A program made the position numbers and the translations under genes. A stretch of 45,791 nt of DNA, from assembly GCA_026770585.1 (NCBI GenBank), contig MU646327.1:957524-1003314 (forward strand), written 5' to 3'. This document shows, piece by piece, positions 18,984 to 45,791 of the stretch. The notes beneath the pieces were generated by a model. The model searched no databases, was not told the DNA's origin, and saw nothing but the letters and a program-made list of their open reading frames with translations. This DNA comes from Baffinella frigidus (Eukaryota; Cryptophyceae; Cryptomonadales; Baffinellaceae). The first letter of the stretch is position 1; every line of letters begins with the position of its first letter.

Positions 18984-18991
18984 GCTAAACC

Positions 18992-19074
<83 letters not shown>

Positions 19075-19585: not shown

Positions 19586-19596
19586 GCGACACGCAG

Positions 19597-20069: not shown

Positions 20070-20160
20070 TACAGGGGTACCTCGCTCATCAGGAGGCGCA
20101 CCCCCCTAGGACCCTCTAGTAGGCCAATACCTGAAGTCCTACGGCGGTCCTGCAAATCGG
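20070..20160. mobile_element. MITE family A, left end only
   Basis: TACAGGGGTACCTCGCTCAT then caggaggcgcacccccctag; the right end is not found. Confidence 0.65.
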
Positions 20161-20349
20161 GAGTTGGCAAACCGATCAAAGTACTTGACTTGGGAGGGCT
20201 AGTGAAGGAGACGGTTGGGGTGGTGAGAAAGGAGCGCGTTTGTGTGTGGGACACGCGGCGCGGTGTGGGGGTTGACTTTGCAGATTGATTTTGACTTTAC
20301 GGATTGATTTGAGGCGGGTCCGTTGTTCGTGTTGACGCAGTGGTGCGGG

Positions 20350-20470
20350 TACAGGGGTACCTCGCTCATGAGAAACTGCCGCCCCCTAGGGCCCTGCAGT
20401 AGGCCTATGCCTAGGGGCCTATGGTGGTCCTAGGGAGGGTGCGGTTTCTTATGAGCGAGGTACCCCTGTG
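20350..20470. mobile_element. MITE family A, complete copy
   Basis: Starts TACAGGGGTACCTCGCTCAT and ends ATGAGCGAGGTACCCCTGTG. The right end followed by CAG makes an acceptor-like cccctgtgcag directly before an open frame. Confidence 0.9.
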
Positions 20471-20825
20471 CAGGCAACGCAAGTACGGGCAAGGCGCGGG
20501 CGCAGCGGGAGGAGAGGGTGGGGCACAGGGCGCATCAACGGAGGGTGAGACACGAGGTGGATCGACGGAGACTCTCGTCCTGGAAGGGGACGCGTTGCCA
20601 GGGGACGCGTTGGGAGAAACGACGGAGTCGCTAGCTGTGCATGATGTGGGCGAGCAGCGTGATGGAAGTTGAGTGAAATCCTGGCAGGTTGCTTCTGTGC
20701 GTACCCTCCTTGGTCTGAATGATCCTCCCACGTCTCTGGAGTCCATCGCAGACGCTGAGGCGCTTCACCTTGAGAGAGCGAGAGAGCGAGCGAGCGAGCG
20801 AGCGAGCGAGATAACAACGAGATAG
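20471..20825 (+). CDS. Possible exons, unrecognised, low confidence
   Basis: An open Gly/Glu-rich frame follows the MITE to a stop near 20672 (GAAGGEGGAQGASTEGET...). A second candidate exon begins after cctggcag at 20687 and reads VASVRTLLGLNDPPTSLES, then IADAEALHLERARER before a (CGAG)n run and TAG at 20823-20825. The complementary strand of 20697-20769 is also open, so strand is not certain. Confidence 0.25.
20772..20815. repeat. (GAGC)n microsatellite
   Basis: gagagagcgagcgagcgagc run. Confidence 0.9.
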
Positions 20826-21031
20826 CGAGCGCGCGCGCGAGAGCACTTTGTTGATACAGACACGGCCGCATTGCATGCCTGCACATGCCAACACTGATGA
20901 TGAGTTCATTCCCTCGTGGGCGGCCTTCTTCTGAGTAGGCCAATCCCCGAAACAACCCACATGTCTAACGCCTACATAAATGACTTCTCTCCGCCCGAGG
21001 CGGGCCCGTCCCAGAGTGCGTCCTGACAGCA

Positions 21032-24000
21032 TCAGCCAACCATGACGCGCTTGCGGCCACGCATCCGCACGTCTGCCAGCTTCAGGAGCGTCCCCTGGAG
21101 AGTGCGGGAGAGGCGGGGGGTGAGGTTCTTGTTGTGGGACATGCGAAGAGGTATTCCGAGGACGGGCTCGCCTCAGGATGCGGCGCCCGGAGTAGAATGG
21201 GTGGATCTAATCCCGCCAGTTCCCCGAATCAACGAAATTTACTACACAATTGGCCAAATCAGTCGTGTCCAGCCCTGGACGTGACCAATTGTGTGGTAAT
21301 TTTCATGTATTCGGGGAACTCCCAACCATTTAAACCAAATACCTGGCGGGATGAGATCCCCGAACACGTGGCACGAGTGGGCGGGTGTGGCCACACGCAG
21401 CTTCGTCAGTCTGCACTCGACCGAGGGTGGGCTCGTCTGAACGCTACAAGTCCCGCGTGTCACACGGCGTCTCTGGTAAAGCCTTGCATCCTTAGGCGCC
21501 CTGAAAGCCTAGATACTCACAGCTCGTTGCATGAAAGGAGAGCGGAACATGGGGCACGATGTTGCTGGGGCCGGGTCTTTCTACTCAACCGAGTTGTTCC
21601 AGAGCGATCACTAATCCGGGCAGGCCTGGTACCATAACACCCTGTGAGGAGTCGAGAGTCACGGGGTTCTGCTAGAGTGGATTGATCATCTGTTGGCCAC
21701 GGAAAATAATGCAGCAATGGCAACAGGTGACGATGCTGGTCCTCTGCAGTCAACGTTTCCCATTGTATCATCTCGTGCGTGGCCACCAGATGCAAACCCC
21801 GCTCTACCACGCACCCCTGCCATGAATCGAAAGTCACAGGGGTCAGCGAGATCTACTCCCGCCGACTATTCAAGTTGCATACGATTTGGCCAAAATTACC
21901 ACACACTAGGTGCATAAACGTAATAATAAAACATTAGTGTAGTAACTTTCACTGCAAACTCGTTTTCAACTTGAATACTTGCATGGATGAGATCTGCAAC
22001 CTGGTGGCGCTTGGATTGGCGGTACCCGGGTCCTGCTGGATCTACTCGGGGAAGAGATATGATAGAAGGGACTACGAATAGGCTTTCAAGAGCCCATCCC
22101 ATGATAAAAGGGATTAGGAATAGGCTTTAAAGGGGAATACAAATAGGATTTAAAGACCTGGTGGCGCTTGGATTGGCGGTACCCGACCAGCACCATCGCC
22201 ATCAGCCCTTCCTGCGCCCCTCCAGACCACCTGCCGATTACTTCGCGTCCCGGACCGTACCAAACGCACGTGCGCCAAATCCTTGCTCTGGCTCCGTCTA
22301 TTTTGTCTCACCAATTTGGTGTCTCCGTCCATTTGGTCTCACAAATTGGTGAGGCCAGGCTCTTTTCCGCTCCAAGGTTGACGAAACTCGCGGCTGCGAC
22401 GCAGCAACTTGCCGCTAGGAACAGATCTCAAAGAAACCGCGAACACGCGCGGGGGTTCTCCGTATCACGAAGCATCCCACTACGCCATCTCCCTCATCCC
22501 GAGGCGGGCCCAAGGCGGGCCCAAGCTTAGGCGGGCCCAAGCTTCCCGAGGCGGGCCCACGCGTTTTTTTCCCTCCCGCCCGGAGAGGGCGCTGCAGGCA
22601 TCTATGTTCCAAGGGCATATATGATAGGTTATGAGCCTCTACGGGCATCTATGCTGTACGGTTATCAGCCTAGACCAACTTTCGAGAGTGGCGGCGACCT
22701 GGGTGTATTTAGAGCAGAACCTTCAGTTAAAAAGGGCACCTACAAAGATTTTATGGTGCGCGCAGGTTTTCTGAGGCAGAGGGATGACCTGGGTGGGTGT
22801 GCTCTCGAGCGCTCGCTCCTCCTACATAATGTCGGAGTTCCCCTCTTACCCAGAGGCCCTCTTCACCAGTCTCTGCACTGGAGAGCTAAATGCGACCCGA
22901 AAGCAAAAAAACTTTCTCTGCAGATCTTTTCTACGGAAAGGCGTGTCGTTGGGCTATGTTGGGAGCTTTTAAAACCTACAGGACCTAACAGGTGCTCTCA
23001 TGCGGAGAGGGGACGGGGGCGCGCGGCGACCTGGGTGTAGGTCGCCGGGGGAAACTGCAGTTGCCTCCTTTAACGAGGGACTTAAGTTGCTCGCTAACGT
23101 AAGCTTTCGGCGTCAAGAGGGAGGACCTTTCTCAGGCAAAGGTAGGACCTGGGTGTGGGTATTTAGGCTCTACAGGCACCTATGCTGTAAGGTTATGAGC
23201 CTAAAACAACTTCCAAGATCAGTGGCGACCTGGGTGTGTGTGCTCTCGAGCGCCCGCTCCATGACGTATAGGTCCACTGCCTTGTCCTCCACTAGCGTTG
23301 ATACCTGCCGCATTTGGGTTGGGGGTTAGGGGTTGGGGGTTAGGGGTTGGGGGTTAGGGGTTGGGGTTTAGGGGTTAAGGGTTAGGGTTTAGGGGTTAGG
23401 GGTTAGGGGTTAGAGGTTAGGAGTTTGGGGTTAGGGGTTAGGGGTTAGGGGTGAGGGGTTAGCGTTTGGGGTGGAGGGTTAGGGGTTAGAGTTTGGGGTG
23501 CAGGGTTTAGACTTGTGAGCGTGGCACGGTTAGTAGGCGTGCCACCACCAACCCCACCACGTTTGCTGACTGACTCAGCGAGTGAGTGAGTGATCGAGTG
23601 AGAGTGTGAGTGCGTGCGTGAGTGAGTGAGTGAGTGAGTGAGTGCGTGAGTGAACGAGTGAGATACACGCATTTCTCTCTCACGCTGTAGGGGTACGTCA
23701 AATCCCTGTTGGGTAGGCTCAACACTGCTCACCGCCTCTCACCGAACACGACAATCGGCGCCCCCCCCCTACACGGTGGCCATGGTTGTTTCGATCCGTC
23801 ATAAATACACGGTTCCATCTCACTGTCAGGGTTGGGAGGGGGGGGGACGTAAGAGAGGCCGAAGTCGATGATGCAGGGCGCGCGGTCGGCCGCCAGGAGC
23901 ATCACGTTCGATGACGTCAGGTCCCCGTGCACCTGCCACGCCAGGCCAGAAGTTGAAGTTTTGTTTTCCAACACGATCTTCGAGTAAAGTTGATTCTACC

Positions 24001-29367: not shown

Positions 29368-32300
29368 TCAGAAGACGCCCGGGGAGTGTTCCGGGTGGAC
29401 ATTGAGCGCCTTGACCGCGGAGCGCGAGGGCGTCGCGTGCCCTCCGTACGAGGCTCCTGCGCGCGCCGGCGTCGGCGGGAGCGACGGCGTGCGCTGCCGG
29501 TTGTCTGCCACCCCCGAGACACCCCGCCCCGTTCAGACTCAGAGGGGCACGCGTTTCCTTCCGTGAGAAGGAACCGCCGGCAGCGATGTTTTTGTCTGCC
29601 GCCCCCCCCGTCCCGTCCAGCGCCCCGCCCCAAGCACTCGCAAAACCTACAGGGGTACCTCACTATTGAGAAACCGCCCCCCGCCTCGCCCCATCACTCG
29701 CGCATCGCTGCCGCCGTTTCTTACGTGTACCCCTCTAGGCCCGAGACATCGCTGCCCCGACCGTGAGTGTCTGTGCATGCACCACTGTCTCGTTCCGCGC
29801 CTCGCCCCAGCACTCGCAAGCCGCATCGCTGCCCGTCATTTCTTACGCGTACTCTCTATGGTCTCGCTGCCCTGGACATCCTTCAGGTCCTATCCCTTGA
29901 GTGGCGAGTAGGCTCATACGCCCTACAGTAGGGTCCTAGGACCTGCCTAGGACCTCTTGCGGGTCAAATTTGACCAGCTCGCCACGTAAGGGATAGGTTT
30001 TTTGCGCTTCCAACATAGGCGGAGACTGGAACTGGTGCTGCAGAAAGGCCGTGCTTCCTTTCGGAACACTGCGCTTTCCGCGGTGGTGCTGACTGGTCAA
30101 TACACGGTGGCGTCCCGCGTTTGTTGGAGGAGATATTCAAGGCACGCGAGTGTCTAGCTCTGCCTCACTCGCGTTCACCGACTATCCTCAAGTTAACATG
30201 CTGGGTGCGCGGTAACAAACCGTCAATTTTGGAGCTGAATGGAGCCCAGACTCACAAAATTGGTAAGCCCACATAGACTGAGACAGAGCTAGGACAATTC
30301 CTCCACTGTTGAAAGCGCTGGAGTGTGAGTGTTGAGGAGGGCGAAGGAAGGAACCGAGGTGCTGGAATGGTTTTGTGAGGACCGAGTCTAGGACGAGTCC
30401 GCTCCGGTCTGTGCTCACACGTGAGTGAAAGACCATCAAACAGCAAAGGGTGTGCGTTCACAGGTTTGGGGTCTAGGAAAGTACCCATATGCTGGAGTTT
30501 CAGCTCGATGGCGAAGACCTTCTGCTCCACCGTCTCCAGCCGCTCCCTGCATTCGGCATCACACGTGTCACCATCCGAATCATGACACGCGCGACCATCA
30601 GAATAGTCAGAGGGACACGCAACCTCTGCACCTGCGCTCCACCGTTTCGAGTCGCTCCCTGCATCACACGCGTCACCACCAGAATACTGACCATCTTCTG
30701 CCGCTCGCTGCATCCGTCACCACACCGATGCAACCCTGCCTCCAATACAAAGAACCCGCACACCTTCTGTTCCACCGTCTCCAGCCGCTCCCTGCCATCA
30801 CACGCGACACCAACTGTCAGGACCTAGTCCAGGACGAGCCCGCCTCGGGTCTTTAGGTCGACTGTACTTGGAGCAAGCCCCTACAAGGGCTGCATGGCCC
30901 GAGGCGGGCTCGTCCTGGACTAGGTCCTCGCACCATCATAATGCTGCAGAGGGACAAGCAACATCAGTGCCGTATGTTCCACGCCAGCTGCTCCCTGCAG
31001 CGCACGCGCCACCACACCGAAACACGCCGATGACCAGCACACGTGTCCCACTTGTCACCACACCGACACAGTCCTGCCGCCAATACACAGAACTTGCCCC
31101 CCTCTGTGCTGGACCAGAGTAGGGTCCCACCGAACGGCCTACACGGTCCTCCATTAGGTTGGTCTGCTGGACCATGGTAGGGTCCTAACGAAGGACCTAC
31201 AGCTGGGAGGGTGCGGCAGGGCCCTACGCGGGTTCCAATGCACGAGATACCCCTGCGAGCGGGAGGCGTGTTACGCCTCCCATGCCAGTCATTCCCTACA
31301 GGTTACTCGCTCACACGGCCACACGTCGTCTCCGGAAGGGTGATAGGCTGCTAGACATAGGCCTAATCCACACAGCGGGCTACGAAGGGATTTTCGGGCG
31401 GTGGGAGCCCGAGTTTCCGTTACCTTATTCCGTAAGAACCCGCCAATGTCCCTACGGTTTGCCTACCGTAGTGTCCTAGATCTCATCGCGTAGGGGTTAT
31501 TCAAAATCCCTTCGAAGTCCGCTGTGTGGTTAGGATCGTCACGACAGAGACAGTCTTGGAACGGACAAATCCGCCAACTTTCGCGCGGGAAAGAGCCCGG
31601 GGTGCCGACCTGGCCGAGTCGCCGAAGGCCTGGACCATCTGGATGAGGTTGGTCTGCTGCACGGTCATGCGGTCGAAGTGTGAGAGCAGCTGGTCCCACT
31701 GCTCGCGCGACGGCGCGAACCCCATCACCTGCGTCAGGGTTCAGGGTTTAGGGTTCAGGGTTTAGGGATTAGGGTTTAGGGTTTAGGGTTTAGGGTTTAG
31801 GGTTTAGGGTTTAGGGTTTAGGGTTTAGGGTTCATTGTTTAGGGTTTAGGGTTTAGGTTAGGGTTTAGGGTTCAGGGGATGCCAGTCAATCCCTACAGGT
31901 GTTACTCGCACACAAGGCCACGTTTCCGGGAGGTTCCTAGGCACAGGTCTCCTGCAGGATCCTGGAGCCGTGCGGGGCCACTTTCGAGCAACCATTGGAA
32001 CCACTTTCTCACAAGTCCCAACAGAGGAGTGTTCTGGGCGTTGCACACACCCGCGGGTATCCCTCGGAGCAAGTGTGTGCGCGCCAGAGCGGGGCGTCTG
32101 GCACCTACACCCTGCCCTCTTAACTAGGTGTAGCGTTGTTTCCAAGTTTTTCGGGTAGGGTGGAAGGGCGTCAGGAGGGTAGGTATCAGGCTACCGGAAA
32201 AAGGGAATTCAAACTCCCATAGCACGAGGCCGGCCCGTCAAATCATCTCAGTGATCAGGCAAATCCGGACCAGTTGTTTGTCAAGAACGAACTCTCTCTC

Positions 32301-35300
32301 TGGAAGGGCGTGCACCAGCCCCGGCTCCGCGTCACTTTCTCACACTCCCCACGAGTTGAGCGACCTGGGCGTTGCATAACACCAGGCAGCCCTGGTAGCA
32401 AACGAGTGCAAGAACGAGGGGGGCGGGTGAGAGGGCAAGCACCGGCCGGTGGAAAGAGGCCGGCCCTTTAAACCATCTCGGTGATCAGGCGGATCCGGAC
32501 CAGTTGGTTGACAACACATGATTCTCTCTCTCTGAAAGGGCGTGCGCACCGGGCCCGGCTCCGCGGCTCCGGCGCTCGGCACGTGCGGCTTCTCGCTTGC
32601 CGCCGGGTTGTTCCCGCGCTGCAAAACGCCAAGGGGTGTGGGGGTCAGGTTTTAGGGTGTAGGGTCTTGAGGGTTTGGGGGTTGGGGTTAAGGGCGAGAC
32701 GGTCACTGAGAGCGCCTGTCCTCGGCGCAGGGCAGTCTACCGCGTACCGTGCATTCAGGGTTTGGGGTTGAGGATTTAGGGTTTAGGGGTGAGGTTTAGA
32801 GTTTAGGGTTTAGGTAGTGTTCAGTGTTTAGTGTTAAGTGTTAAGTGTTTAGTGTTCACGGTTTAGGGTGTAGGGTTTCGCCCTCCTCGCGTGCTCGCTC
32901 ACCTCCAACCAACCCTTGCAAGTCTAGTGTGTTGGTGACCCCCCCCCAACCCCCCCTCCCGAGTTGTCCCGATTCGCACCGAAAGCAGCGCTTCCCGGTA
33001 CAAATATGCCACGCGAAATAGACTGGGACAGAGCTCGAAGGTGCCGCCCGCCCTCCCAACTGAATTGTTCCCACCAATTCGGTGAGAATAGGCTCTTTTC
33101 CGTTCCAAAGATCACGGATCTGTACCACGAATCAAGTACGTCAACGTAGGGGAGCAGCCAGCAAACCCGCCTGAGGTAGAGCTAGAAACCTGATGCGTTG
33201 CCAGTGCGGTGCCTGCCAGTGCGGTGTGACGTGTGCAGTTGTGGCGTTGTGGTGGGGTGCGTAGACAACCGGATGGGTCTAGCGCTGCCTCGGGCGGGTT
33301 GACTGGCTATTCTTAAGTTGTCATGATGGGTCTTAAGTTGACCTTGGAGGTGGAGAGCGCCTCGATGGTAAGCGCCTCCTGGCGGTTCCCGCCGCGGGAA
33401 GCGTTGGCGCTCGCTTTTTCCTGCAGCGGACGTCAGGGTTTAACTGCACTACGGCAGGGGGCTACACATCATCTCAACACTCGTGTGTGTGTGCGTGTGT
33501 GTGTGTAGGGGGGGGGGTTGAGAGAGAGAAAGAGAGAGAGAGAGGGGGGGGGGGGAGAGAGAGAGAGAAAGAGAGAAAGAGAAAGAGAGAGAGAGAAAGA
33601 CCTGCAGCGGCGTCCGCGTGGGCGTCGCGTCGCCCCCGGAACCCTCCCGCCCCAACGCCCCAGGCGCCTGTCCACGGCAGGTCGTTACTGGGAATTTCAG
33701 GACGCAACGTTTCATTTCGTGTACGTAGCCACCATCGATTTCGCAGCTACTCGTCCTTTCCATGTCCGATTCAAATACAAAATTTGGGATCCGGGTACAT
33801 TTTTTTAGAAAAGACTTGTTGTAGCTGAAATTCCGGCTTACGTCCTGGCGTGGCATGCAGAAAGCTCAAGTTAGAGACGTCTCCCCCGGGCACCTCCCGC
33901 CCCGACGCCCCGGGCGCCTGTCATGCAGAAACCGTCCAAATGAGTCGCGACTGAGTACAAAATCAATAATTAAAAACACTGTAGGCCTGTGAAAGACCTG
34001 GAATTGCTTTTACAATCGGTTCAGTGCTGGGAAGTCCCTCGTTGACAAGCACCTTGAGGTGGTCGCTAACGTACGCGTTTGACGTTGAAGCGCTTGCGGG
34101 AAAACTTGTGGCCGATTTCAAGAAGAAACTTTTTCAGAAATCGAGATTTTTTACCAGGATGTAAACGGTCCATCTAAACGATTCTCGTACAATTCTGAGA
34201 AAAAAAATCTTCGGAAAATCGGGCAAGTTTTCTCGCAAGCGCTCTACCTGGTTCTCCGCGTCGTCGTCCTCGACGGCTTCCTGCTCCGCCTCCTCCACCA
34301 CGGGGGTGCGCGCGCCCTGCGGAGAGGGGCGCGAGGGGTTTGTTTTGCTTCGTGGAGAGAGAGGGAGGGAGAGAGGGTGCGAGAGAGGGTGCGAGAGAGC
34401 GAGAGTGTGAGCGACAGAGCGAGAGTGTGAGCGAAAAAGAGAGAGGGAGCGAGAGCGAGCGGGAGAGCGGGAGAGAGAAGCAGACCTTCGAGACGGATGT
34501 GGAGAGGGCTACAGGGATGTTGTGAACGCCATCCTTGGTCTTCCACAGCTGGATCACCTGGTGTAGGGTTTAGGGTTCAGGGTTTAGGGTTTAGGGTTTA
34601 GGGTTTAGGGTTTAGGGTTTAGGGTTTAGGGTGTGGGGTTTAGGATTCAGGGAGTGGGGCTTAGGGTTGAGGGTTGAGGGAGTGAAGTGCAGGGTGCAGG
34701 GGTTGGGGTACAGGAGCTGCCTCTCTGAGAACTGTACCACACCTGCTCCGCCTAGCTCTTAACATCTCGCCATAAAAGAATTTCAGATGCCCTTTTGTCC
34801 CGCGGTAGGGTAGTGGGTGAAGTGGGCGAAGCGGCGGGAGGAGCGGGGATGTGGGGTGGCAGGCACGAAGGTGTGAGGTTGCTAACGCTGCGCTACGTGG
34901 ACAGAGGGGGCCTCTTGTAGAGTAACGGTGGCACAACTATGGCAAGCACGTTTTTAATCAGGCAGGACTAGTAGAGAGCGAGAAAGAGAGTAGGGAGAGA
35001 GAGCGAGCGAGAGAGGGAGGGAGGGGGGGGGGGCAGAGAGAGAGAGAGTGAGAGCGAGAGAGAGAACGAGAGAGAGCGAGAGAGGGCTAGCACACCTGGA
35101 CCGCGTGTTCGCGCACGGGCTTCATCTTGTCGAACTTGGCAGTCTCGAGGATGGTGCTGATCGCCTTCTTGTGCTCCGTCAGGATCCCTACATCCATCCG
35201 GTTGATCGCCACTTCCAGCACCTGTAGGGGTTGGGGGTTAGGGTTTCACGTTTTTTGTCAAGCCTTTGACATCCATACCAGTACCACCTCCCGCCCCAAC

Positions 35301-36937
35301 GCGTACCCCTGCTGCGCCCAGGGAATACGTGTCACTCTTGGAGCTTGTTTCGAGAATTCCATAGTTGTGGGATGATAGTTGCTTGGAGACTCCCACAGGC
35401 GTTGGGATGTTTTGACTAGGGTCATGCGCTCAAGGGTTAACGTGTCGCGAGTGTTGACCCACACCACGTTGACAGAGATGCCGTGCATGACTTTTCGCAG
35501 TTGGGTTCGGCAGCCGCACGGTGCCCTCGCGCCAGTCAGTCAGTCCGTCCGTCCGTCCATCAGTCACTGAGTCAGTGAGTCAGCGAGTCAGCGAGTCAGT
35601 GAGTCCGCCAGTCAGTGAGCGGGTGAGTCAGTCAGGCAGTGAGACATGCAGTCAGGCAGTCAGTCAGTCAAGCAGGCAGGCAGAGCTTGAGTGAGTGAGT
35701 GAGTAAGTGAGTGAATAGTCAGGCAGGCAGGCAGGCAGTACGGGGAAGCGTGGTCGGCAGGCGGTCCATCCTCTGCCTCTTCACCAGCTTGCTGATTGCT
35801 CAGCGGCCTCCCACTTCTGTGAATCCCATCATCTGCAAACGTTGGGATGGAAGGGAACGTTGCAACGCTGGGTGCGCGGCTCGGAAAAAATGCGTCAAGA
35901 TTTGGAGGACGCACCTCGATGACCGACTTGCGGGCGTTCCAATCCTGCGAGGCGAAGACACCCTGCAGCCGCTCCATGTACAAGCGCGCCATCTTCGCTG
36001 AAACCCCGTCCGGGCATACCTCCATCTGCCAAAGTGCGTTGGGCGTTGGGCACGGTCCAGGGTTGCACTCACCCTGGCCATGGTCACCCTCCCCACAGAG
36101 ACAAGCCCACGCGCGTGTTCGACAACTGCTGCGGTGGCTAGGTCGGCGGGGGCACAGGTCGCACGTGCGGCTGTGGAGAGGTGGGTGGTGGGTGGGGGGA
36201 ACCATGTTGGCGACGGCGATGAGCAGCTCCTTGCGGCCCTGGAACTGGTTGTTGCCGAGGATCGCAATGATGCGCGTCGTGAGCTTCTCGAGGTGGCCCT
36301 TGACGGCCGGGCCGGAGCAGAAGATGACGTGCGCCAGCGCCAGCGCGCACCCCTGCTGGGAGAACTCCTCGGCCGACTCCATTGTCTGGAGCAGCGGCTT
36401 GAAGAAGACGCCTAGGGTCGGGCCACCCTCGGAGTCGGCGGTGGAGGCGTCGGGGTCGAGCGTGTCGTCGTTGGAGGAGGCGTTGGAACCCCCGTCGCCC
36501 GCGCTGACAAGGACGCGCGCGAGCTCGCCGAAGGCAGTGCCGATGGCATCGCGCACATTGGGATCCTTGTCCTTGGTGCGCTTCACCAAGTTAGCCACGA
36601 CCTTGGCAAGCGACGGCTGAATCCCCGCAAACTGCGTGTTGGCCAGCGTAAAGAACATCTTGGCCACGGCGATGCGCGCAAAAGCACTCTCTTTGGTGTC
36701 GAGCGCAATCAGCGCGCTCGCAACCACCGACGCAAGCGCGACAGGCAGCGGCTCCTCCTCGCAGAGCGCATTGAACTCAGCAACGGCATTGTTCTGTGTG
36801 TCCCGGTCGCAGAGCTTGTTGAGCGACTTGCTCACGCGCGAACGCAGCGCCGTCCTCAACTTATCCAGCTCCAGCTTCGCCTGTTTCGACTCCTTTCCGC
36901 CCCGTGGGGTCAGGAGAGGGAGATCCGTGTCCGCCAT
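29368..36937 (-). CDS. TORTIFOLIA1/SPIRAL2-like microtubule-associated protein
   Basis: Exons in transcript order: 36937-36203, 36025-35915, 35221-35096, 34557-34486, 34316-34248, 33420-33343, 31728-31610, 30546-30485, 29504-29368 (TGA included); about 502 aa, all junctions in frame. N-terminal HEAT/TOG array: SKSLNKLCDRDTQNNAVAEF, KDKDPNVRDAIGTAFGEL, then SQDWNARKSVIE|VLEVAIN and ILETAKFDKMKPVREHAVQ|VIQLWK. The KFDKMKPVR...LWK signature is diagnostic of this plant/algal family. An acidic linker (EEAEQEAVEDDDAENQ) and a C-terminal coiled coil (NLIQMVQAFGDSAR|ERLETVEQKV) follow. Family members bind and stabilise cortical microtubules and minus ends, and affect growth direction; flagellar or cortical roles in an alga are inference. 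The first intron (177 nt) is stop-free and a multiple of three. Introns carry TTTAGGG blocks, CT-rich tracts and several MITEs. Confidence 0.9.
29648..29737. mobile_element. MITE family A, shortened
   Basis: TACAGGGGTACCTCACTATT at left, TTCTTACGTGTACCCCTCTA at right, only 90 bp. The interior is unlike other copies (ctcgccccatcactcgcgca, which recurs at 29808-29835). Confidence 0.65.
29891..29995. mobile_element. MITE family C, copy 4
   Basis: Ends TATCCCTTGAGTGGCGAGTA and GCTCGCCACGTAAGGGATA. Followed at 30005-30065 by a family F fragment (gcggagactggaactggtgc). Confidence 0.88.
30520..31015 (-). repeat. Array of decayed copies of TORTIFOLIA1-like exon 8
   Basis: The exon start (caccgtctccagccgctccc on +) is repeated at about 30528, 30641 and 30773, with a weaker copy near 30978. 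Spacing is 110-200 nt. Copies keep the acceptor-like ctgca on their right side but accumulate substitutions with distance. Confidence 0.85.
30819..30928. mobile_element. Foldback with perfect 31-bp arms
   Basis: 30819-30849 is the exact inverse of 30898-30928 (AGGACCTAGTCCAGGACGAG then CCCGCCTCGGG), with a 48-nt spacer. A piece of the arm (aggacgagcccgc) also occurs at 5507-5519. Confidence 0.9.
31368..31529. mobile_element. MITE family D, copy 2
   Basis: CCACACAGCGGGCTACGAAG...ATTTT and AAAATCCCTTCGAAGTCCGC...TGTGTGG form ~27-bp terminal inverted repeats. Confidence 0.9.
31735..31880 (-). repeat. TTTAGGG heptamer block
   Basis: Nearly pure gggttta repeats, the cleanest telomere-type stretch in the window, ending at the acceptor of TORTIFOLIA1-like exon 7 (sense: ...aaccctgacgcag). 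C-rich on the coding strand. Confidence 0.92.
32640..32880 (-). repeat. Degenerate heptamer block, G-rich on +
   Basis: tagggtttaggggtgaggtt, gtgttaagtgttaagtgttt and similar; inside the same TORTIFOLIA1-like intron as 31735-31880. Confidence 0.8.
33515..33600 (-). repeat. GA/CT microsatellite
   Basis: gagagagaaagagagagaga and poly-G interruption; pyrimidine-rich on the coding strand of the TORTIFOLIA1-like gene. Preceded by (GT)n at 33484-33507. Confidence 0.9.
34338..34482 (-). repeat. CT-rich intron tract before TORTIFOLIA1-like exon 5
   Basis: gagagagggagggagagagg on + is a ~145-nt pyrimidine tract on the sense strand, filling the intron between exons 34557-34486 and 34316-34248. Confidence 0.9.
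34562..34700 (-). repeat. TTTAGGG block before TORTIFOLIA1-like exon 4
   Basis: gggtttagggttcagggttt repeats end at the acceptor of exon 34557-34486 (sense: accctacaccag). Confidence 0.9.
34970..35095 (-). repeat. GA-rich microsatellite after TORTIFOLIA1-like exon 3
   Basis: gagagagcgagcgagagagg-type tract starting at the donor (sense gtgtgctagccctctctc). Confidence 0.9.
35535..35740. repeat. (GTCA)n/(GAGT)n degenerate tetranucleotide array
   Basis: cagtcagtcagtccgtccgt, gagtcagcgagtcagtgagt and caggcaggcaggcag runs in the intron between TORTIFOLIA1-like exons 2 and 3. Confidence 0.9.
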
Positions 36938-37094
36938 GGTCTCTGGACCCGATAATTTTGAATTAAAAAGTTGGGTTGTAAAATCGAAATCTATTCAAAA
37001 GTCATTATTTTGAAAATCCCCTTGATTTTTGTCGAAAGTTGACAAAATAAGCTTTGTTTGTGGACCCCCCCCTCTTCCTTTCAGCTTTTTTGGC
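36938..37094. promoter_or_regulatory. Short divergent promoter region
   Basis: Only 157 bp separate the start codons of the TORTIFOLIA1-like (-) and WDR26-like (+) genes. The stretch is A/T-rich, contrasting with GC-rich coding DNA, with tcaaaagtcattattttgaa and a polypyrimidine stretch (ccccccctcttcctttcag). Probably a shared bidirectional promoter; the ttcag before the + ATG might instead be an acceptor. Confidence 0.5.
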
Positions 37095-40000
37095 ATGGGA
37101 CGCCTTTGCGCACCCGGGGTGGCTCTCCTCGGACTCATTTTCCTGGGTGCTATCTCCGGTAATCCGGGGCGCGGCGCGGCGCCGGCAGCTGTGCGTGCCG
37201 CATGTTCTGGGACGTGCTCGCGCCCCGCGTTGCGCCTGCGGGGCCTTCGGGGAGGGGGCCCACCTGAACAGCTGGAGGACGCGGCCGGAATTCTGGTCGA
37301 GAAGGAGGACGAGGTTGTCAAAATTATGATGCAGGCTCTGGAGGGCATGGGGCTCCTCGAGACGGCGCGCTGCCTCGAGCGCGAGTCTGGGATCTCGCTG
37401 CGAGATGGCCAGGCGGAAAGCGTCTTGGAGCTCGAGCGAGCTGTCCTCGACGGACGTTGGGAGGACGCGTGCGGGATCCTCGAGGGTGCTTCATCCTCGT
37501 GGGGCACCTGCCGCGCCAGGTTCCCCGTGTATCGGCAAATGTACCTGGAGTTGCTCGAGGAAGGTCACCGCGCAGCTGCGGAAAGGTACCCTCTCCACGC
37601 CACCGGTGACGGGGGCCCACCCTGCTCATCCCATCCATGAACCCTGACACCCAACCCTGAACCCTTCACCCTGAACCATGGACCCTGAACCCTAAACCCT
37701 ACACCACAAACCCCAAACCCAAAACCTTGAACACTAAACCTTACACCCTACACCCTCAACCCCAAAAGTGTGAAGCCCCGCATGCCCCCCCCCTCCCCAC
37801 CTCCCTCTTTCAACAGCCCCCCCCCCTCCTTGAAACAAATGCACCGCGCAGGCGCTACGCAGAGCGGCTGGAGCCGGCGGCGCGCAGCAGGCCACTGAAA
37901 CAAATGCCCCGCACAGGTGCTATGTGGATCGGCTGGAGCCAGCGGCGCGCAGCAGGCGGCAGCGCGCCCAGCTCGAAGATCTCGAGGCCCTCCAGGTAAA
38001 CCATACACCCTACACCATAAACTATAAACCATGCGCCATGAACCATAAACCATAAACCAAACACCATAAACCATAAACCATAAACCATAAACCATAAACC
38101 ATAAACCACAAACCATAAACTTTGAGGCCCTGCAGGATCGCCCGACCCTGAACCCTCAACCCGACACCCTAAACCCTGAATCCTACATTCCCAACCCTGG
38201 ACCTTACACCCTATCCTGCAGGATCGCCCGCGGGGGGATATCAGGGATGCTGCCGGGTGGGAAGGGGGGGAGCTTCATGTGCGGATCAAGGTGCGGGTTT
38301 GGGTTTTGGGTTCAGGGTTTAGGTTTTGGGGTTTGGGGTTGGTGGTAGGGGTTTGGGGTTTAGGGTTGGGGTTTGGGGTTAGGGGTTTCGGGTTTGGAGT
38401 TTAGGGTTCAGGGTTTAGAGTTTAGGGTTTAGGGTTTAGGTTTTATGGTTTAGGGTTAGGGGTTTAGGGTTTAGGGTTTAGAGCTCAGTGTTTAGGGTCA
38501 AGGGTTTAGGGTTTAGGGTTTAGGATTTAGGGTGTAGCTACTGAACTCCGCTAGCGTGCCTTTCCAGTCCTTCCTCGGCCCGGATCCACGGTCCTCACGT
38601 GACCGACTTTCAGCCGAATATAAAATTCACAAGGTTATCATCCAAATAGGACAACATCAGCCATTTCGTCTAGAAAAAGATTTTAACGTGGACACCATCA
38701 ACGAAAATAATAAATGAGATTGGTCACGTGATTGCCCTGGATCCGGGCAGAGCAGGGTCTCGAAAGGCAAACTAGCTGTGTTCAGTAGAGGGTTTAGGGT
38801 TTAGGGCTTAGGGCTTAGGGCTTCGGGCGTAGGGCGTAGTGCGTAGGGCTTCGGGCGTAGGGCGTATGGTTTAGGGCTTAGGGCTTAGGGCTTGTGACTT
38901 TTGGCTTAGGGATTGGGGCTTAGGGCGTAGGGCTTAGGGCTTAGGGCTTAGGGCTTAGGGCTTAGGGCTTAGGGCTTAGGGTTTAGGGCTTCGGGCTTAG
39001 GGCTTAGGGTTTACACACACTCCAGACAGCTGTGCCGCCCGTGTCGCAGCGCTGCGGCGCAACCGTCCAGAGATATTCCACCTGGCTTTACCACCGCTTC
39101 TTGGGCTGCTGACTGCTGACTGGCGGAGAATTCATGTTGCAGAAAGTTGACATACACGGTGGTGGTCTGGCCTGGCTTGTAAGTGGTCAAACACCCCTAC
39201 CGAATCCCGCCACAACTGAGATGTAGCCCGGTACACATGACCGGATCGTGGCATACGAGTAAACTACGCTGGCACAGAAGGTGTAGCCATATCATGTATT
39301 TGTTAAGGGCGTATGTGCCTACCGACATTGAAAGATGCTTTTGAAAACAAATTGGGCTTACCTCAAGTACCTCGCAGGTGGTGGGGGGGGGTTAGCACAG
39401 CTGCCTTCCGCCATTTGTACCACGAAACTGTCTAAAAAAGTCATCCAGAGCTAACGCCTTTCGAACCGTAGGTGGTGGAGGAGGTGTTAGCACAGCTGCC
39501 TTCCGCCATCAACCTACCGAAGAATCGCCTCGGCACGCTCCTCGCTCAAGCCCAGTGGTCTCCTCCCGCTCTTCACACGTGAAAGCTTTTCGCAAGCCTA
39601 TACTCTCATATCCTGACCAAAACATGGCGTGGATCCTGCCAGCCGAATGTTGTGAATCTGCACTTCACAACCGGGAAATGAACATTTCTTGCGCGCGACT
39701 GTTTCGCACGCAGAGCGCGTGACCCTGGGACTAAAGCAAACCTCAAATCGCGTAATGGTGATGGGATTGCGTGCAAGCAAAGGCGGTAGGTGAGTGAGCG
39801 TTGGCGATCGGGACGTTGTTCCCCTACACGAAACAGCAGCAAGCCATAAGGCGTGGAAGAGAAACAAGAGCATCGAACAAACACACGCGAATCCAAAGAA
39901 AGGAGAGAATGGAGTGAAAACAGAGAGACCCGCGACGGGGTCCGCGCTGAAGCCTCAGGAGTCAATCCGAACACCTTAACCACGGAGCCACGATTTCAGG

Positions 40001-43000
40001 CTGCAGCGGAGCGACACGCTGTTCCCGTACACGAAACAGGAGCAGCAATCTCTGCTGGAGGACTTGACGTTTTCGCCGAAGCAGCTGCCGCGCCTCCTCG
40101 GAACACTCACCGCTCACTGGTACATGCTCCGCCCCCCCCCGCCCTCTGAGGCAGATGACGGTGCTTTTCGAACTCCTCGGAACCATCACTGCTCACTGGT
40201 ATCCCTCCATCACCCTCTGAGAGAGATGACTCAAACCAACTCCACCTTCACATCCTCCTCATTCGTTTCCATCACCGCTCACTGGCAATGCCCCGCCCAC
40301 CGACGCCCTCTGAAGGAGATTTCGAACTCTTTCTTTCAACTCCCGGGAATTTGAACCGATCTTTTTTTCAACGGCGGATTCGCGATGTTGACTAAACGAG
40401 TTGACTTATTACGTTTGAACGTTTCAGACGATTCAGGCCCTGGAATCGTGTCAACTCAAGAGAGACCTGCTCTATCTTCTTTCTTTACCTTGAACCTTCA
40501 CGGAGCAACCATGGTTGAGTTTTCGGCGAGGGGGGGCGAGACGTAAGAACACGAGGGGTGGCGGGAAGTAAGAATCCCTATGCATAGCCTCCGGACTGGT
40601 GGGATTGGCGGTGACGTGTGGTGGGGTTGGCTGTTTTTTTCAGCGACGAGGTGTGGGTGGTGAAGTTTTCGCCTTCTGGGCGGTACCTCTGCACGGCGGG
40701 GAAAGACGGCCGTGTCCTCGTCTGGAACAGGTCCCTTCGTTCAACCCTGCACCCTGCAGCTTAAACCCTGAACCCTGAACCCTGAACACTGAACACTGAA
40801 CACTGAACACTGAATCCTGTCACCCCTCCCCCGCAGCACACGTCTCTGCATTTTTGTTTTCGTGTGTTTTTTTGTGATCCGGGAGGTGCCCGAGTACTTG
40901 CGCCAATCGGTTGCTTGTTCCATGTTTCAACGTTGCAACCTGAGGGCGTGCTGGAAACCAAGAGGCGCTTCCTCTGTTCAACGCGGCGGGCAACACGTGT
41001 GTTGGTTGTGTCCTTCTCCTGTCTGTCTTCTCTTTCTTCTTCTTTATTGCTCTCGATACAGGTCCTAGCTGGTCGTTAATCTTGGTCGTGTCGACATTCT
41101 AGCCCACAGGGGGTGCTAACGCTACTAGACACTACTTACTGTGCTAACTACACTACACTACACTACACTACGGCTGGTGGCAGCGACGTGCTTCATCGTT
41201 TCTCCTCTTTCTTCTTCTTTTGACACAGGCCATAAAAGGTCGTTAATCATGGTCGTGTCCTGGGTCGTGTCCGGCAGAGCGACATCCTCACGGGACGAGA
41301 CGAGGAGGCCATGCCCGACGGTCCTGGTGGCCGCTCCGCCCTCGCGCACCCAGCATACCGCCCTCACGCACCTGGAGTGAGGACCTTCTAATCCTGGTCG
41401 TGTCTTGGTTGCAGTGACATCCTCGCGGGACGAGATGAGGAGGCTATGGCCGACGACGAGCACGAGATGCCGAATGCGGAAGGTGCCGGGACGCGACCCC
41501 TATCTTTGGACGTGACCCCTATCGTTGGACGTGCCCCCTGGACGTGACCCCTGCCCTTGCCTCCACGCGATGCCTGTTAGCTTCCTGCGGGGTGCCGTTA
41601 GGGTCTATCCCTCCCTGTCTCCTCCCATCTCGGCGCAACCCTCTTCTACACCACCCGCAGGGGAGTGTGTTCCAGCAGTCAAGCCTGCCTGCATGTACCT
41701 GTGTTGGTTGGTGGTTGGGTGCAGGGTTCAGGGTTTCAGGTTTTGGGTTCAGGCTGCTCATGGTGGACTCCATGAGCAGTGGCGTGCGCGCGCCTCGAAA
41801 AGTTTTCAAGGGGTAGAAGCTTCCCGCAGGGTTCCTACCCTCCGTCCCCTCTCTCCGCTCACCCCCCCCCCTGTGAATACAGGCGCGCGAGGGCAGAGCG
41901 GCTCCCCCGGCGGAGTGGGGGGATGCGGGGGGAAGAAGGAGAGTGTGTGGGAGGCACGCGTCCGGAGGGCGCTGGTTGTCTCCATCGCTGCTGAAAGCGA
42001 GGTCCGAGCTCGCCCCCCTGCAGGGTCTAGGGTCTAGGGTCTAGGGTCTAGGGTCTAGGGTGCAGGGTGTAGCCTCTCCCCTTGAACCCCACCTCCCCAC
42101 TTCCCCCACGCGTGTCGTGTTTACCACGCCGCCAACGTCGACGCGTCCGACATCGCTGCTGAAAGCGATGTCCTCGCCCCATTTCGGGGGGCAGGGTGTA
42201 GGGTGTAGGGTGTATGGTTGTAGGGTGTAGGGTGTAGGGTGTAGGGTGTAGGGTGTATGGGTGTAGGGTGTAGGGTGTAGGGTGTAGGGTGTAGGGTGTA
42301 GGGTGTAGGGTGTAGAGTGTAGGGTCAAGGGTGTAGGGTGTAGGGTGTAGCCTCCCCCCTTCCACCGCGTCTACTCTGGCGTGCCGATGATACATTCACC
42401 TGGTAGGTGCGCTGGTTGTCTCCATCGCTGCTGAAAGCGAGGTCTGAGCTCCGTGTAGGGTCGAGGGTCGAGGGTCTAGGGTCCAGGGTCCAGGGTCTAG
42501 GGTCTAGGGTGTAGGGTCTAGAGGCTAGGGTCTAGGGTCTAGGGTGTAGCCTCTCCCCTTCAACCCCGCCTCCCCCCTTCCCACACCTGGCAGGAAGAGG
42601 TAGGGAAACGTGTGACCAGTCGAGAGTGGTGGGATTGTGTTTGGGGGGGGGGTGCGTGTTACCTCGCGCTCCTTGCATGCATGTACGGGGCGACGAGACT
42701 GGGTGAGGAGAGGGGGCGGAGGGGCAGGAAGAGAGAGATACAGTTGCTTTACTGAGCGTCTCTGTCCGTGAATAAGAAACTTATGCGAGGGACCAAAAAA
42801 GAACTAAACCTTTAGTCCGTATATCAGATGTGGGTCGTGACGTGGGCGTCAGACGAGTCTCCGCTCCTTCCCACTCCTCTACTCTCACGCACCGAGAATA
42901 TCTGTATTTTAGGGGGCGAGGCGGCTGAGTGAGAAGAGCGAACGGAGAACCGCATGCTAACCCGTTCGATTTCATCTCGGCAGGTGTGGGACGTGACGTG

Positions 43001-45791
43001 GGCGTCGGACGAGTCTCCCCCCCTTCCCACTCCTCCACTCTCACGCGCCGAGAATACATATATCTATTTGCGGGAACGGAGGACCGCATGTGAACCTGTT
43101 CGATTTCGTCTCGGCAGGTATGGGACGTGACGTGGGCGTCAGACGAGTCGACGGTGGTCGCGGCCGGGTGGGATGACGTCACGGCGCGCGCGTGGGCGAT
43201 CCCTTCGGGCGTGCTTCTAGCACCCCTCCCACAGGTCACGCTCCGCCTAACCCATCGCCCGTTGGTGGTAAGCACCGCGTGCGCACGTGGTGCCTACACG
43301 GGAGAACTCAAGAGAAAGGGAGAGATCACGTTTCTTTGTTTTTACTGATTTCTGGCACACCTCGGCGAACGAAGGGCAATTGTTTTGAGGCTTGAATTAT
43401 TTTCAGGGGCGTGGTCTTGAGAGCTGAATGTTGTTGGGGGGGGGGGGCTGGACCAGTGACGATGAGAACTGGGCGATGACTTGCTGGGTGCCAACATCAG
43501 TTTTTCGCTTTACACCACCTACTTCATGCTTGGGGTCATGCCGCGTAGGTAGTCCATACATGCTACAGGTTTGGGGGTTTCTGTAGTCCCATCCCCGTGT
43601 ACTTCTTCTTCAACAAATCAACGCTCTCTCTCTCACACACACACTCTCTCTCTCTCACACACACACACTCACACACTCTCTCTTTTTCTCTCACACACAC
43701 TCTCTCTCTCACACACACACACACTCACACACTCTCTCTCACACACACACACACTCTCTCTCACACACACTCTCTCTCACACACACACTCTCTCTCGCGC
43801 TTGTTGGGTGACAGGTGCGGGAGCCGGTGTCAGCGGTGGCGTGGATCAAGGGTACCCCCTGGTGCGCACTCGGCGGAGGCGAGGCCGGCATTCTCGTCTG
43901 GCAGGTTGCCGCCCCCCTAACGCCGAACGCCAATGGTACAGGAGGACTTATTTGGCCTTGACTCGGTCCCTGTTAGGACTAGCGCGGGATGGGCACTGCC
44001 CCCCTACTCACTAGCTCTGCATTCTCGTGTGCCTGGTGCGCCTCTGCCCCCCCACTCCCTAGCTCTGGAGCCCGGACGGTGATTACTCTGGTGTGCGGTG
44101 CAAATTTGTCACTTGATGGGGTGAAAACGATCAGTTGACCCGACTGCGCGCGCCCTACCACATAGCGGACTACAACGGTGTTTTGTGAATAACCCACACG
44201 TGGACAAGCCCGCGATGTCCCTACAGTAGGCAATCCGTAGGGACGCCCCTGTGAGGACTGGCGCGGGATAATCCGTATCGGGAGAATCCACTGCCCCCCT
44301 CTGCCTCAGTCGGGTCGACTGATCTTTTTCACTCCACAAATTGACGGGTGTGTACCACAAACCGGGAAAAATATTTCCCGGTCCTCTCATGTTCAGGAGA
44401 CCATATTGAGAAATAATTTCCGGACTTCGCATGTTCAGGAGACCAGATTAACGCAGGCAGGGCTGGATAGTGGAGGGGGCGCGCGATAATGGTGATGGTG
44501 GGGGGCAGGTGCCGCACTTGGTCAGGGAAGAAGCATCATCATCTCGTTTTCTTTCTCACTCTTACACTCTTCCAAACACACTCACTCAGATGCAACTGCG
44601 CCCCACCAGCCGCACCCCAAGCCCTGGTTCCCCTCTACCCTCTGCCCTCCACCCTCTACCCTCTACCCTCTACCCTCGACCCTCTACCCGCTACCCTCTA
44701 CCCTCTACCCTAAACCCTAAACCCTAAACCCTAAAAACCTGTGTGTCTCCCTGGCGGGGCAGGTGCCGCAGTTGGGCGGAGACGCTTCATCATCCTCCTC
44801 TGCGCGACAAAACGCGCCTATGCGGTTAATCGAATCAAAGCGCCAGGGACAAAATACACGGTTATTCGGATCACGCCCAACACAGCCAGCTTTTTCAGGT
44901 GCCTCAGTTGGGCGGGGACGCGTCATCCTCCGCGCGGCAGAACAACGCGCCAGTCGCGCGACTCGACACGGGCGGCCGCGCGGTCCACGACCTCTTATGT
45001 ACCCAGGTGTCTGTACCCTCGGCCTACACCCTGAACTCCGAACCCTGCCCCCTCCCTCATGTGAGCCTGGCCACGACCTCCTATGTACCCAGGTGCTGCC
45101 ACTCCATACGAGGCTATGCAGGCGAACAGAATAAAAGGACGTTTTAAGGGTTTGTGGGGAAAGCTAAACGGAAAGCGTGTGGCAATGGCGCTAATTGCTG
45201 ACTGTTGGCGTGTTTCCTGGGCAATGGTCCAAGAATTGACTATGGAATCTGTTTGCATTGATAGCTTCGTGTGGCTCGCCACCTCTGCCCTTTTTTCTTC
45301 TTCTTTGGGATTACACTCTAGCCTGGAGATGAGTGATCCACGCCGTCAGGGGGTGTGTGCTAGGCGGTACCCCCGAATCGTCGCGTGCCGAGTCCCTTAC
45401 ACACCCTACGCTCTAACCCCCCCCTCGCCCCTCCCCGCAGGACGGGGGACGGATCGTAGCGCTGCTGAGCGAGCAGGTTGTGCGCATCTACGACGTCGCC
45501 CACCTCTCAGGTGCACACCCCACCCCACACCCTGAACCTCCCCACCCTCCAGGTGATAATGGTGCCGGTGGACACCATCTTCGCGCGCTAAACCCCATAC
45601 CACACACTCGCAGGCGCCGTGGCCGCTTCACCGCCCGGCTCACCGCACACCTCCCCGCACGCCGCGCGCCGCACCCCCACTCAAGACACGGCCCCGCCTC
45701 AAACCCCCACAGGCCCGCCTCAGAGCCCTGGAGGGCCCGCCTCAGAAGCCGCTGCGCGGGAGAGTCCCGCTGCGGAGGGTGTCGGGGGAGG
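37095..45791 (+). CDS. WDR26: WDR26/GID7-like LisH-CTLH WD40 protein (3' end outside window)
   Basis: Exons: 37095-37585, 37917-37995, 38222-38290, 39472-39557, 40000-40119, 40644-40730, 41415-41482, 41883-42001, 43118-43210 (or to 43234), 43815-43904, 44899-45006, 45441-45510, 45614-45791 (open at the edge). Intron phases vary (2,0,0,2,2,2,1,0...) yet every join keeps frame. LisH (VVKIMMQALEGMGLLETAR, ~73-100) and CTLH (LELERAVLDGRWEDACGIL...RQMYLELLEEG, ~105-157) precede the linker VLAQLPSAINLPKNRLGTLL and WD40 blades DEVWVVKFSPSGRYLCTAGK, VWDVTWASDESTVVAAG, VSAVAWIKGTPWCALGGG and DGGRIVALLSEQVVRIYDV. This family is the WD40 subunit of the GID/CTLH E3 ubiquitin ligase. Odd points: a hydrophobic leader (GVALLGLIFLGAI) followed by ALRLRGLRGG before LisH, and Pro/Ser/Gly-rich insertions in the propeller. 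Confidence 0.92.
37640..37770 (+). repeat. Heptamer block in WDR26 intron 1
   Basis: CCCTGAA/CCCTAAA/CCCCAAA units just after the first exon; C-rich on the sense strand. Confidence 0.88.
37831..37960 (+). repeat. 65-bp tandem duplication of WDR26 exon-2 acceptor and 5' half
   Basis: Unit 1 (37831-37895) and unit 2 (37896-37960) both read tgaaacaaatgc...gcacag|G, then cggctggagcc. Both have a usable acceptor. Unit 2 is used in the proposed model because it continues to the donor at 37996 in frame. Confidence 0.9.
37996..38220 (+). repeat. (CCATAAA)n-type intron with an exon-junction-like fragment
   Basis: Donor gtaaaccatacacc, then a run homogenised for CCATAAA to 38117, then tttgaggccctgcaggatcg (38119-38138), then CCCTGAA/CCCTAAA. 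The fragment joins sequence like the end of exon 2 (gaggccctccag) to the start of exon 3 (gatcgcccg). Confidence 0.85.
38291..39015 (-). repeat. G-rich heptamer blocks (GGGTTTA, then GGGCTTA) against the usual polarity
   Basis: 38291-38540 is gggtttagg-type; 38789-39015 is homogenised for gggctta. Both lie in a + strand gene, so they are G-rich on the sense strand. 38541-38788 between them is unique sequence. Confidence 0.88.
39373..39420 (+). repeat. Echo of WDR26 exon 4
   Basis: cgcaggtggtgggggggggt, then tagcacagctgccttccgcc, copies the acceptor and first 40 nt of exon 39472-39557 about 95 nt upstream; frame broken. Confidence 0.88.
40090..40335 (+). repeat. Three tandem copies around the WDR26 exon-5 donor
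   Basis: ctcaccgctcactg|gtacat (true donor, 40119), atcactgctcactg|gtatcc and atcaccgctcactg|gcaatg, each followed by a C-rich stretch and ccctctga. Period about 80-95 nt. Confidence 0.88.
40740..40820 (+). repeat. Heptamer block (CCCTGAA/CACTGAA) in WDR26 intron 6
   Basis: ccctgaaccctgaacactga-type units just after the donor; C-rich on the sense strand. Confidence 0.88.
41262..41460 (+). repeat. Two copies of WDR26 exon-7 start
   Basis: gacatcctcacgggacgaga (41279) and gacatcctcgcgggacgaga (41416) with preceding g-cag acceptors. The second is in frame with the neighbours. Downstream, ttggacgtgacccctatc repeats at 41505-41550. Confidence 0.85.
41965..42455 (+). repeat. Three copies of WDR26 exon-8 3' end with heptamer fill
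   Basis: ctccatcgctgctgaaagcg, then ag|gtc, at 41981, and again at 42420; a diverged copy (cgacatcgctgctgaaagcg) at 42149. They are separated by GGGTCTA and GGGTGTA arrays (42019-42065, 42190-42350). Confidence 0.88.
42019..42550 (-). repeat. GGGTCTA/GGGTGTA arrays, G-rich on sense
   Basis: Locally pure gggtcta (42020-42060), gggtgta (42190-42320) and mixed (42457-42550). Second exception to the C-rich-sense rule, again inside WDR26. Confidence 0.88.
42820..43140 (+). repeat. Three tandem copies of the start of WDR26 exon 9
   Basis: gacgtgacgtgggcgtc-type starts at about 42835, 42989 and 43124; the last two follow ttcgatttc(a/g)tctcggcag. The last copy is the true exon (VWDVTWASDES). Copies are 130-155 nt apart and share cacgc(g/a)ccgagaatat between them. 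Confidence 0.9.
43620..43800 (+). repeat. (CT)n/(CA)n microsatellite before WDR26 exon 10
   Basis: ctctctctcacacacacaca alternation, ending 14 nt before the acceptor gggtgacag at 43814; supplies the polypyrimidine tract. Confidence 0.92.
43885..44310 (+). repeat. Echoes downstream of WDR26 exon 10
   Basis: gcattctcgtctggcaggtt (true end) is echoed by gcattctcgtgtgcctggtg at 44019. ggactagcgcgggatgggca (43977) is echoed by ggactggcgcgggataatcc (44256). Confidence 0.75.
44158..44245. mobile_element. MITE family D, one-ended
   Basis: CCACATAGCGGACTACAACG, then gaataaccca and ccctacagtaggcaatccgt; the right end is missing. Confidence 0.6.
44505..44940 (+). repeat. Three copies of the start of WDR26 exon 11
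   Basis: caggtgccgcacttggtcag (44507), caggtgccgcagttgggcgg (44760) and caggtgcctcagttgggcgg (44896, true exon). The second copy stays open for about 20 codons (VPQLGGDASSSSARQNAP). Confidence 0.9.
44637..44735 (+). repeat. CCCTCTA, then CCCTAAA heptamer block
   Basis: ctctaccctctaccctctac then ccctaaaccctaaaccctaa; C-rich on the sense strand of WDR26. Confidence 0.9.
44980..45100 (+). repeat. Echo of WDR26 exon-11 3' end
   Basis: ccacgacctcttatgtaccc|ag (true donor at 45007) and ccacgacctcctatgtaccc|ag at 45071-45092, both followed by gtg. Confidence 0.9.

Follow-up and report, generated by a model that had tools for sequence, protein, structure and literature searches.

Local copies of exon edges in the introns of a WDR26-like gene and of other genes of Baffinella frigidus

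Tandem duplication is already known as a source of introns: under the Rogers model, a segment containing AGGT that is duplicated in tandem can create or lengthen an intron. Intron gain by tandem genomic duplication has been described in potato RdRp (PMC4974935), and direct repeats of 4-30 bp, with a mean of 11.4, have been reported near the two borders of introns (Rogers and Bendich, 2025; PMC11782384). The Baffinella genome comprises 534.5 Mbp with 41.1% repeats, and that of Guillardia theta 87.2 Mbp (PMC9756366); the word "intron" has no occurrence in the main text of that Baffinella genome paper. Here, we describe a locus in which the edges of exons recur within the neighboring introns. In the open-access literature searched, no earlier report of such copies at a comparable density was found, which is not proof of absence.

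The window, i.e., the whole stretch of DNA analyzed, covers 45,791 nt of the cryptophyte alga Baffinella frigidus (contig MU646327.1, positions 957,524-1,003,314), and its last part holds the following gene:

37095..45510, forward strand: WDR26-like gene, 11 modelled exons in a frame-consistent GT-AG chain
37095-37585, 37917-37995, 39472-39554, 40000-40119, 40644-40730, 41415-41482, forward strand: WDR26-like exons 1-6
41883-42001, 43118-43267, 43815-43904, 44899-45006, 45441-45510, forward strand: WDR26-like exons 7-11

In a profile search, the product of this gene matched the Pfam families LisH_WDR26 and WD40, and the WDR26 PDB chain 8qbn_7 was among its structure-database matches. The model holds no stop codon, and the gene probably continues beyond the end of the window; a transcript protein for the model was looked for and none was found. 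Genome searches used a 382-Mb assembly, much of which is N (14 of 20 sampled stretches throughout), and in its readable part good matches were confined to their own places, with no second WDR26 locus. The copies of exon edges in this gene are as follows:

37831..37892, forward strand: copy of the exon 2 acceptor edge, adjacent tandem with a 65-nt unit (repeat search and edge alignment)
39373..39414, forward strand: copy of the exon 3 acceptor edge (edge alignment)
39806..39841, forward strand: copy of the left part of exon 4, starting 9 nt inside the exon (repeat search and edge alignment)
40173..40201, forward strand: first copy of the exon 4 donor edge (repeat search)
40259..40320, forward strand: second copy of the exon 4 donor edge, GT changed to GC (repeat search and edge alignment)
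41258..41320, forward strand: copy of the exon 6 acceptor edge, its intronic part repeated again at 41050-41092
42137..42179, forward strand: first copy of the exon 7 donor edge (repeat search)
42405..42451, forward strand: second copy of the exon 7 donor edge, 96% identical (edge alignment)
42825..42907, forward strand: outer copy of the exon 8 acceptor edge (repeat search)
42940..43063, forward strand: inner copy of the exon 8 acceptor edge, preceded by 44 nt of intron (repeat search and edge alignment)
44019..44052, forward strand: weak copy of the exon 9 donor edge, p=0.037 (edge alignment)
44502..44543, forward strand: outer copy of the exon 10 acceptor edge (repeat search)
44756..44818, forward strand: inner copy of the exon 10 acceptor edge (repeat search and alignments)
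45071..45098, forward strand: copy of the exon 10 donor edge (edge alignment)

For significance, 20 WDR26 edges were aligned as 80-nt windows, each against its own masked intron, with 300 control intervals of the same length per edge drawn from the window's first 35 kb. Of the 20 edges, ten scored above all 300 controls, and nine remained after removal of one simple repeat, the intron 8 acceptor, which was dropped as an edge copy because it is a CT/CA repeat. The nine are the acceptors of introns 1, 2, 3, 5, 7, and 9 and the donors of introns 4, 7, and 10. A sequence-only reading of the locus had proposed these echoes, leaving room for the case that exon edges match unrelated sequence equally often; the copies lie far above the controls, and exon-edge copies in introns are a genuine observation. 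Seven of the nine sets that it listed were recovered in the repeat search (20 of 24 families shown) and the pair 44980/45071 in the edge alignments, where 44019/43890 also appeared, but weakly; the pair 39806/40009, absent from its list, came from the WDR26 edge alignment. Its statement that such scars stand at nearly every boundary was too strong, the share being about 45-50% of WDR26 edges (9/20 clear and a tenth weak).

The splice-site dinucleotide, AG or GT, is kept in 12 of the 14 WDR26 copies (one of the two losses by extrapolation), about the level that a decay of 6% per site would leave. Among the 12 copies (of 14) whose splice sites were tested in silico, one would give an in-frame, stop-free product, and 11 a broken frame or a stop. 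Judged from reading frame and homology only, the modelled exons would be the copies that are spliced in WDR26, and the intronic ones are most probably functionless. Since the splice sites of inner copies are often still intact, gene predictors should be used with caution at such loci. In places the units are nearly contiguous, as at 37831/37896 (unit of 65) and at 42825/42981/43117. The copy at 44756..44818 differs from exon 10 by five synonymous and no nonsynonymous changes in one alignment (with a 6-nt gap), and by three and two in another.

The gene next door offers a second case within the same window:

29371..36937, reverse strand: HEAT-repeat gene, whose 11 exons jointly encode the MMETSP protein P0011
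36203-36937, 35915-36025, 35096-35221, 34486-34557, 34248-34316, 33602-33667, reverse strand: HEAT-gene exons 1-6
33343-33420, 32550-32618, 31610-31728, 30485-30546, 29371-29504, reverse strand: HEAT-gene exons 7-11
33878..33917, reverse strand: copy of the left edge of exon 6, within the upstream intron (edge alignment)
31130..31172, reverse strand: weak copy (score 19) of the right part of exon 9, downstream (edge alignment)
30630..30791, reverse strand: two upstream copies of the left edge of exon 10 (30757-30791, score 29; 30630-30658, score 18)

This gene matched a Baffinella frigidus protein with 100% identity over 77% of the query, and its transcript support is at the protein level (P0011). 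By a Pfam accession it may be TORTIFOLIA-like, a name that stands outside our claims. The NCBI-named Baffinella protein P0010 has an extra stretch between the first two exons that is absent from P0011, and the public model seems to retain intron sequence between exons 1 and 2. At a cut-off of 18, copies were found at 3 of the 11 exons against 1 of 220 controls. When exons were chained to P0011, exon 10 had a second splice path (30764-30791 plus 30485-30518) with an identical protein; the copy at 30757-30791 keeps its internal AG-GT intact and, by its sequence, could be used as an exon of 28 nt without any change to the protein.

Beyond the window, kinesin motor exons were placed by Pfam in 13 loci, chosen non-randomly among 45 matches as those with at least two Pfam hits close together. 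Exon limits are those of the Pfam hits, refined by eye in five loci, so that junctions are approximate, and some exons lie near the end of a locus; exons with more than five N were left out, as was one Pfam hit in L031, itself one of the copies. Within 1.5 kb, 12 of 36 kinesin-domain exons had one copy or more, and 18 of 72 flanks had a copy against 3 of 720 control targets. The copies fall in six of the 13 loci, with none at the same cut-off in the other seven; counted over 14 loci, seven were without any copy at the cut-off. For the 12 kinesin exons tested, no second copy was found in the readable genome, the best match outside the own gene having 59% identity. One copy (L033 2743-2819, C101 kinesin) lies 221 nt from its exon and differs by ten synonymous and one nonsynonymous changes; in the readable genome it matched nothing besides itself and that exon.

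The copies are direct in 30 of 116 flanks and inverted in one. In 41 of 43 cases (p=2e-10 if independent; copies of one exon are non-independent), a copy upstream of the exon matches its left part and one downstream its right part; when a single copy is counted for each exon side, this holds in 26 of 27. Such a geometry is as expected of tandem duplication across the edge; neither random pasting of exon pieces nor partial loss of whole duplicate exons would yield the polarity. The distance from exon to copy has a median of 223 nt (range 65-914), the aligned exon part a median of 45 nt, and a single exon may have up to seven copies. A tandem unit would be expected to bring adjoining intron along; against this, the 70-nt flank on the intron side was significantly alignable in just 14 of 43 copies (one without a flank to test, and kinesin junctions being approximate), so that many units are either old, rearranged, or of other origin.

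Short local duplications are not restricted to exon edges. Across 161.6 kb, 378 local repeat pairs were counted, with a spacing mode of 130-155 nt, 174 pairs at 80-255 nt, and 71% below 400 nt. Local direct repeats were found for 19.5% of 892 80-nt windows over the whole window (far control 0.8%; inverted 10.4%). In the four sampled stretches that were usable, the share was 37.5% of 530 windows (far 1.3%; inverted 13.4%); the remaining 16 of 20 were left out, 14 for being N throughout and two for being N over more than half of their length. The WDR26 edges with a copy, 9/20, compare with 31/109 intron-only windows (p=0.19, with targets and cut-offs that differ somewhat), and there is no clear sign of edge-specific enrichment over the intron background. 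A local copy was present for 31 of 104 intron-only windows of the HEAT gene; in it, the interval 35663-36994 spans two exons, a complete intron, and a portion of a second one, with 17 of its 30 windows wholly exonic. Of 35 fully exonic windows in the two genes, 3 had a local copy. The most economical reading is that duplications arise evenly along the sequence, are purged within coding sequence, and are visible at edges because the exon side is conserved.

Other repeats were observed in the window. Local inverted repeats are dense at 4000-6000 and 18000-22000, where they reach 43% of 80-nt windows, and are rare at exons. Near-identical open-frame sequence occurs on opposite strands at 5933-6295 and 11454-11993, about 5.5 kb apart, and at 12600-13800 of the forward strand coding-like direct repeats (IAALKAELNYATG.. 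and IAALRAELTYSTAG..), 0.7-0.9 kb apart, are probably duplicated exons. Degenerate arrays of TTTAGGG-like heptamers are common in introns and elsewhere (1-1902, 2789-3376, 6951-8107, 18988-19574, 38295-39013, 42022-42549, and others), and one of them has matches at many sites in the genome. Furthermore, some copies have next to them a short repeat, perhaps a MITE, whose ends are AAAGTTGAC/GTCAACTT and whose core is TTTGTACC (37035, 39143, 39414; L031 and L033).

We consider it likely that the copies result from serial short local tandem duplications straddling splice sites, with the spare copy turned into intron and decaying. Short local tandem duplications, spaced most often at 80-255 nt, are very common in this genome, and we infer replication slippage or template switching as their source. 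Where a duplicated segment crosses a splice site, the gene would come to hold two copies of that site; use of the outer one (upstream donor or downstream acceptor) would leave the mRNA unchanged, and since this choice alone leaves it intact, selection would retain the outer site. The other copy, with about 20-90 nt of former exon, would become intron and then decay unconstrained, and repeated rounds would give several copies per edge and a longer intron around the same protein. From the Rogers model invoked by the sequence-only reading, what is supported is tandem duplication that spans splice sites and lengthens introns, by the direct orientation, the side-specific polarity, and the short spacings; AGGT-based intron creation is not supported in general.

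The divergence between exons and copies is more synonymous than simple decay would predict. Over 43 copies of 19 exons, mismatches at the three codon positions number 40, 52, and 168, with a dN/dS of 0.171 (bootstrap 0.125-0.239), or 0.187 with one copy per exon side; positions 1 and 2 differ by about 6% and position 3 by about 23%, with a correlation of 0.00 between their divergences. For 32 hand-listed pairs, on which the frame-shift check and the decay simulation were based rather than on the 43-copy set, dN/dS was 0.180, and wrong reading frames gave 4.2 and 1.6; simulated free decay beside a constrained exon gave a median of 0.40-0.55, the lowest 0.5% of runs lying at 0.25-0.35. The kinesins contribute most of the synonymous excess. 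The four copies of the HEAT gene give 0.19, and WDR26 alone 0.25, with codon-position mismatches of 8, 6, and 17 that are close to plain decay (positions 1 and 2 differ at 14/234, position 3 at 17/112, and intronic flanks at 27/210). In four multi-copy exons, changes private to one copy fall at 7, 12, and 14 of the codon positions, and shared changes at 2, 1, and 16. The private changes look neutral, in line with copies described earlier as decayed; the exon-copy difference is mostly synonymous, unlike such decay. The copies thus seem to decay freely at present, and part of the divergence seems older and made in coding sequence.

An internal AG-GT redundancy was rejected as the cause of the low ratio, which is 0.159 without it (37 copies) and 0.219 with it (6 copies). 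A three-base periodicity of mismatches, looked for without annotation in local repeats, was likewise set aside, with top-phase counts in WDR26 (39 vs. 40.8 expected), the rest of the window (128 vs. 121.0), the kinesin loci (338 vs. 322.6; 70 pairs, with L043), and the other loci (296 vs. 295.1; 67 pairs, the overlapping L002 and L007 both counted).

These data bear on a different origin, in which the duplications would arise in part by unequal exchange between diverged alleles or homeologues, anchored in exons as the parts that remain similar, making the copy synonymously different from birth, and which we regard as possible, at less than an even footing. Besides the low dN/dS, the shared synonymous changes, and the uncorrelated codon-position divergences, it would account for the intron-side flank being alignable in only one of the eight copies most diverged at third positions; moreover, the "haploid gene models" in Table 1 of the genome paper (PMC9756366) favor it, and from this we infer that allelic models were removed. 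Against it, third-position divergence fits one class of copies as well as two (a self and a foreign class were unsupported over one: BIC 188.5 for one, 189.5 for two, and 188.2 for a beta-binomial), WDR26 follows roughly plain decay, and in the readable genome no second copy of WDR26 or of the 12 kinesin exons tested was found and the strongly diverged L033 copy matched only itself and its exon, a weak argument since most sampled stretches are N. More tentatively still, the intronic half-exons may be snapshots of other coding versions, either earlier states or diverged alleles, rather than decayed copies of today's exon, with edges repeatedly copied out and replaced. In two exons of L033, nearly complementary breakpoints are locally suggestive of one event that divided an older exon at a single position.

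It is unlikely that the process is driven by a transposon, a short element with AAAGTTGAC/GTCAACTT termini that would either trigger the duplications or bring the splice sites with it, as introners do. In 6 of 43 copies the motif is found no more than 70 nt from the breakpoint inside the exon, compared with 51 of 1262 background windows (p=0.009), and a few copies in L031 and L033 directly adjoin it, but 37 of 43 breakpoints are without it and it was picked after inspection of the breakpoints. Telomere-like heptamers were rejected as markers of the exon-internal breakpoint (10/43 vs. 281/1847, p=0.2), which also speaks against this origin, with enrichment on the splice side (14/43, p=0.005).

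Birth of introns as in the Rogers model, where an AGGT-bearing exon segment is duplicated and the stretch between two AG-GT sites becomes a new intron, is improbable as a general account. P0011 does fit two splice paths at HEAT-gene exon 10, one through the 28-nt copy with its own AG-GT, and GT follows 5 of 10 WDR26 acceptors. However, the donor and acceptor neighborhoods of the 10 WDR26 introns share 15-28 of 80 identities in register against 23.3 +/- 3.7 off the diagonal, a likeness that old births could have lost; an internal AG-GT giving the same protein occurs in 6 of 43 copies only, four of them from one exon; and the exon parts that were copied show no excess of AGGT (7 observed vs. 8.7 expected).

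It is very improbable that two diverged haplotypes were merged into false local duplications: many copies do differ from the exon as diverged coding alleles would, and repeats make up 41% of the published draft assembly (PMC9756366), but up to seven copies per exon at 65-914 nt, private changes, and broad spacings are, in our judgement, unlike haplotype misjoins. That the copies are functional alternative exon halves under selection, as the low dN/dS might suggest, is hardly credible, given that they are partial rather than complete in-frame exons with both sites, would, through their splice sites, disrupt the frame or run into a stop in 11 of 12 WDR26 cases, and have neutral-looking private changes and splice dinucleotides at about the neutral level.

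Serial tandem duplication across splice sites would offer a concrete route to intron bloat without harm to the protein, in a genome far larger than that of Guillardia theta. Because one copy is under coding constraint and the other is not, every pair of exon and copy provides both an internal clock and a pseudogene test. If the copies hold older or allelic coding states, the history of an exon could be read within one genome, and if they are snapshots, introns would be a readable record of the past synonymous states of the neighboring exon.

Among known systems, the potato RdRp case (PMC4974935) is alike in its local tandem duplication beside or across splice signals; in Baffinella, the duplications run across splice sites already present and make introns longer, with a negative register test over 10 introns. 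Polyubiquitin dual-specific AG-GT sites (PMC10809524) resemble the HEAT-gene exon 10 copy, with its AG-GT and a same protein possible, but an internal AG-GT occurs in just 6 of 43 Baffinella copies. Introners (PMC9860276) likewise build introns from repeated units, and a TIR-like motif lies near some Baffinella breakpoints; the Baffinella units are, however, local copies of neighboring edges and not one family spread over many genes. The repeats of Rogers and Bendich (PMC11782384) are also direct and near splice sites, whereas in Baffinella the aligned exon part alone has a median of 45 nt, and the partner of an edge lies farther inside the intron, its polarity depending on the side of the exon. 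Duplications that span existing splice sites at high density, lengthening introns and leaving side-specific copies, are in this sense a variant of a known process.
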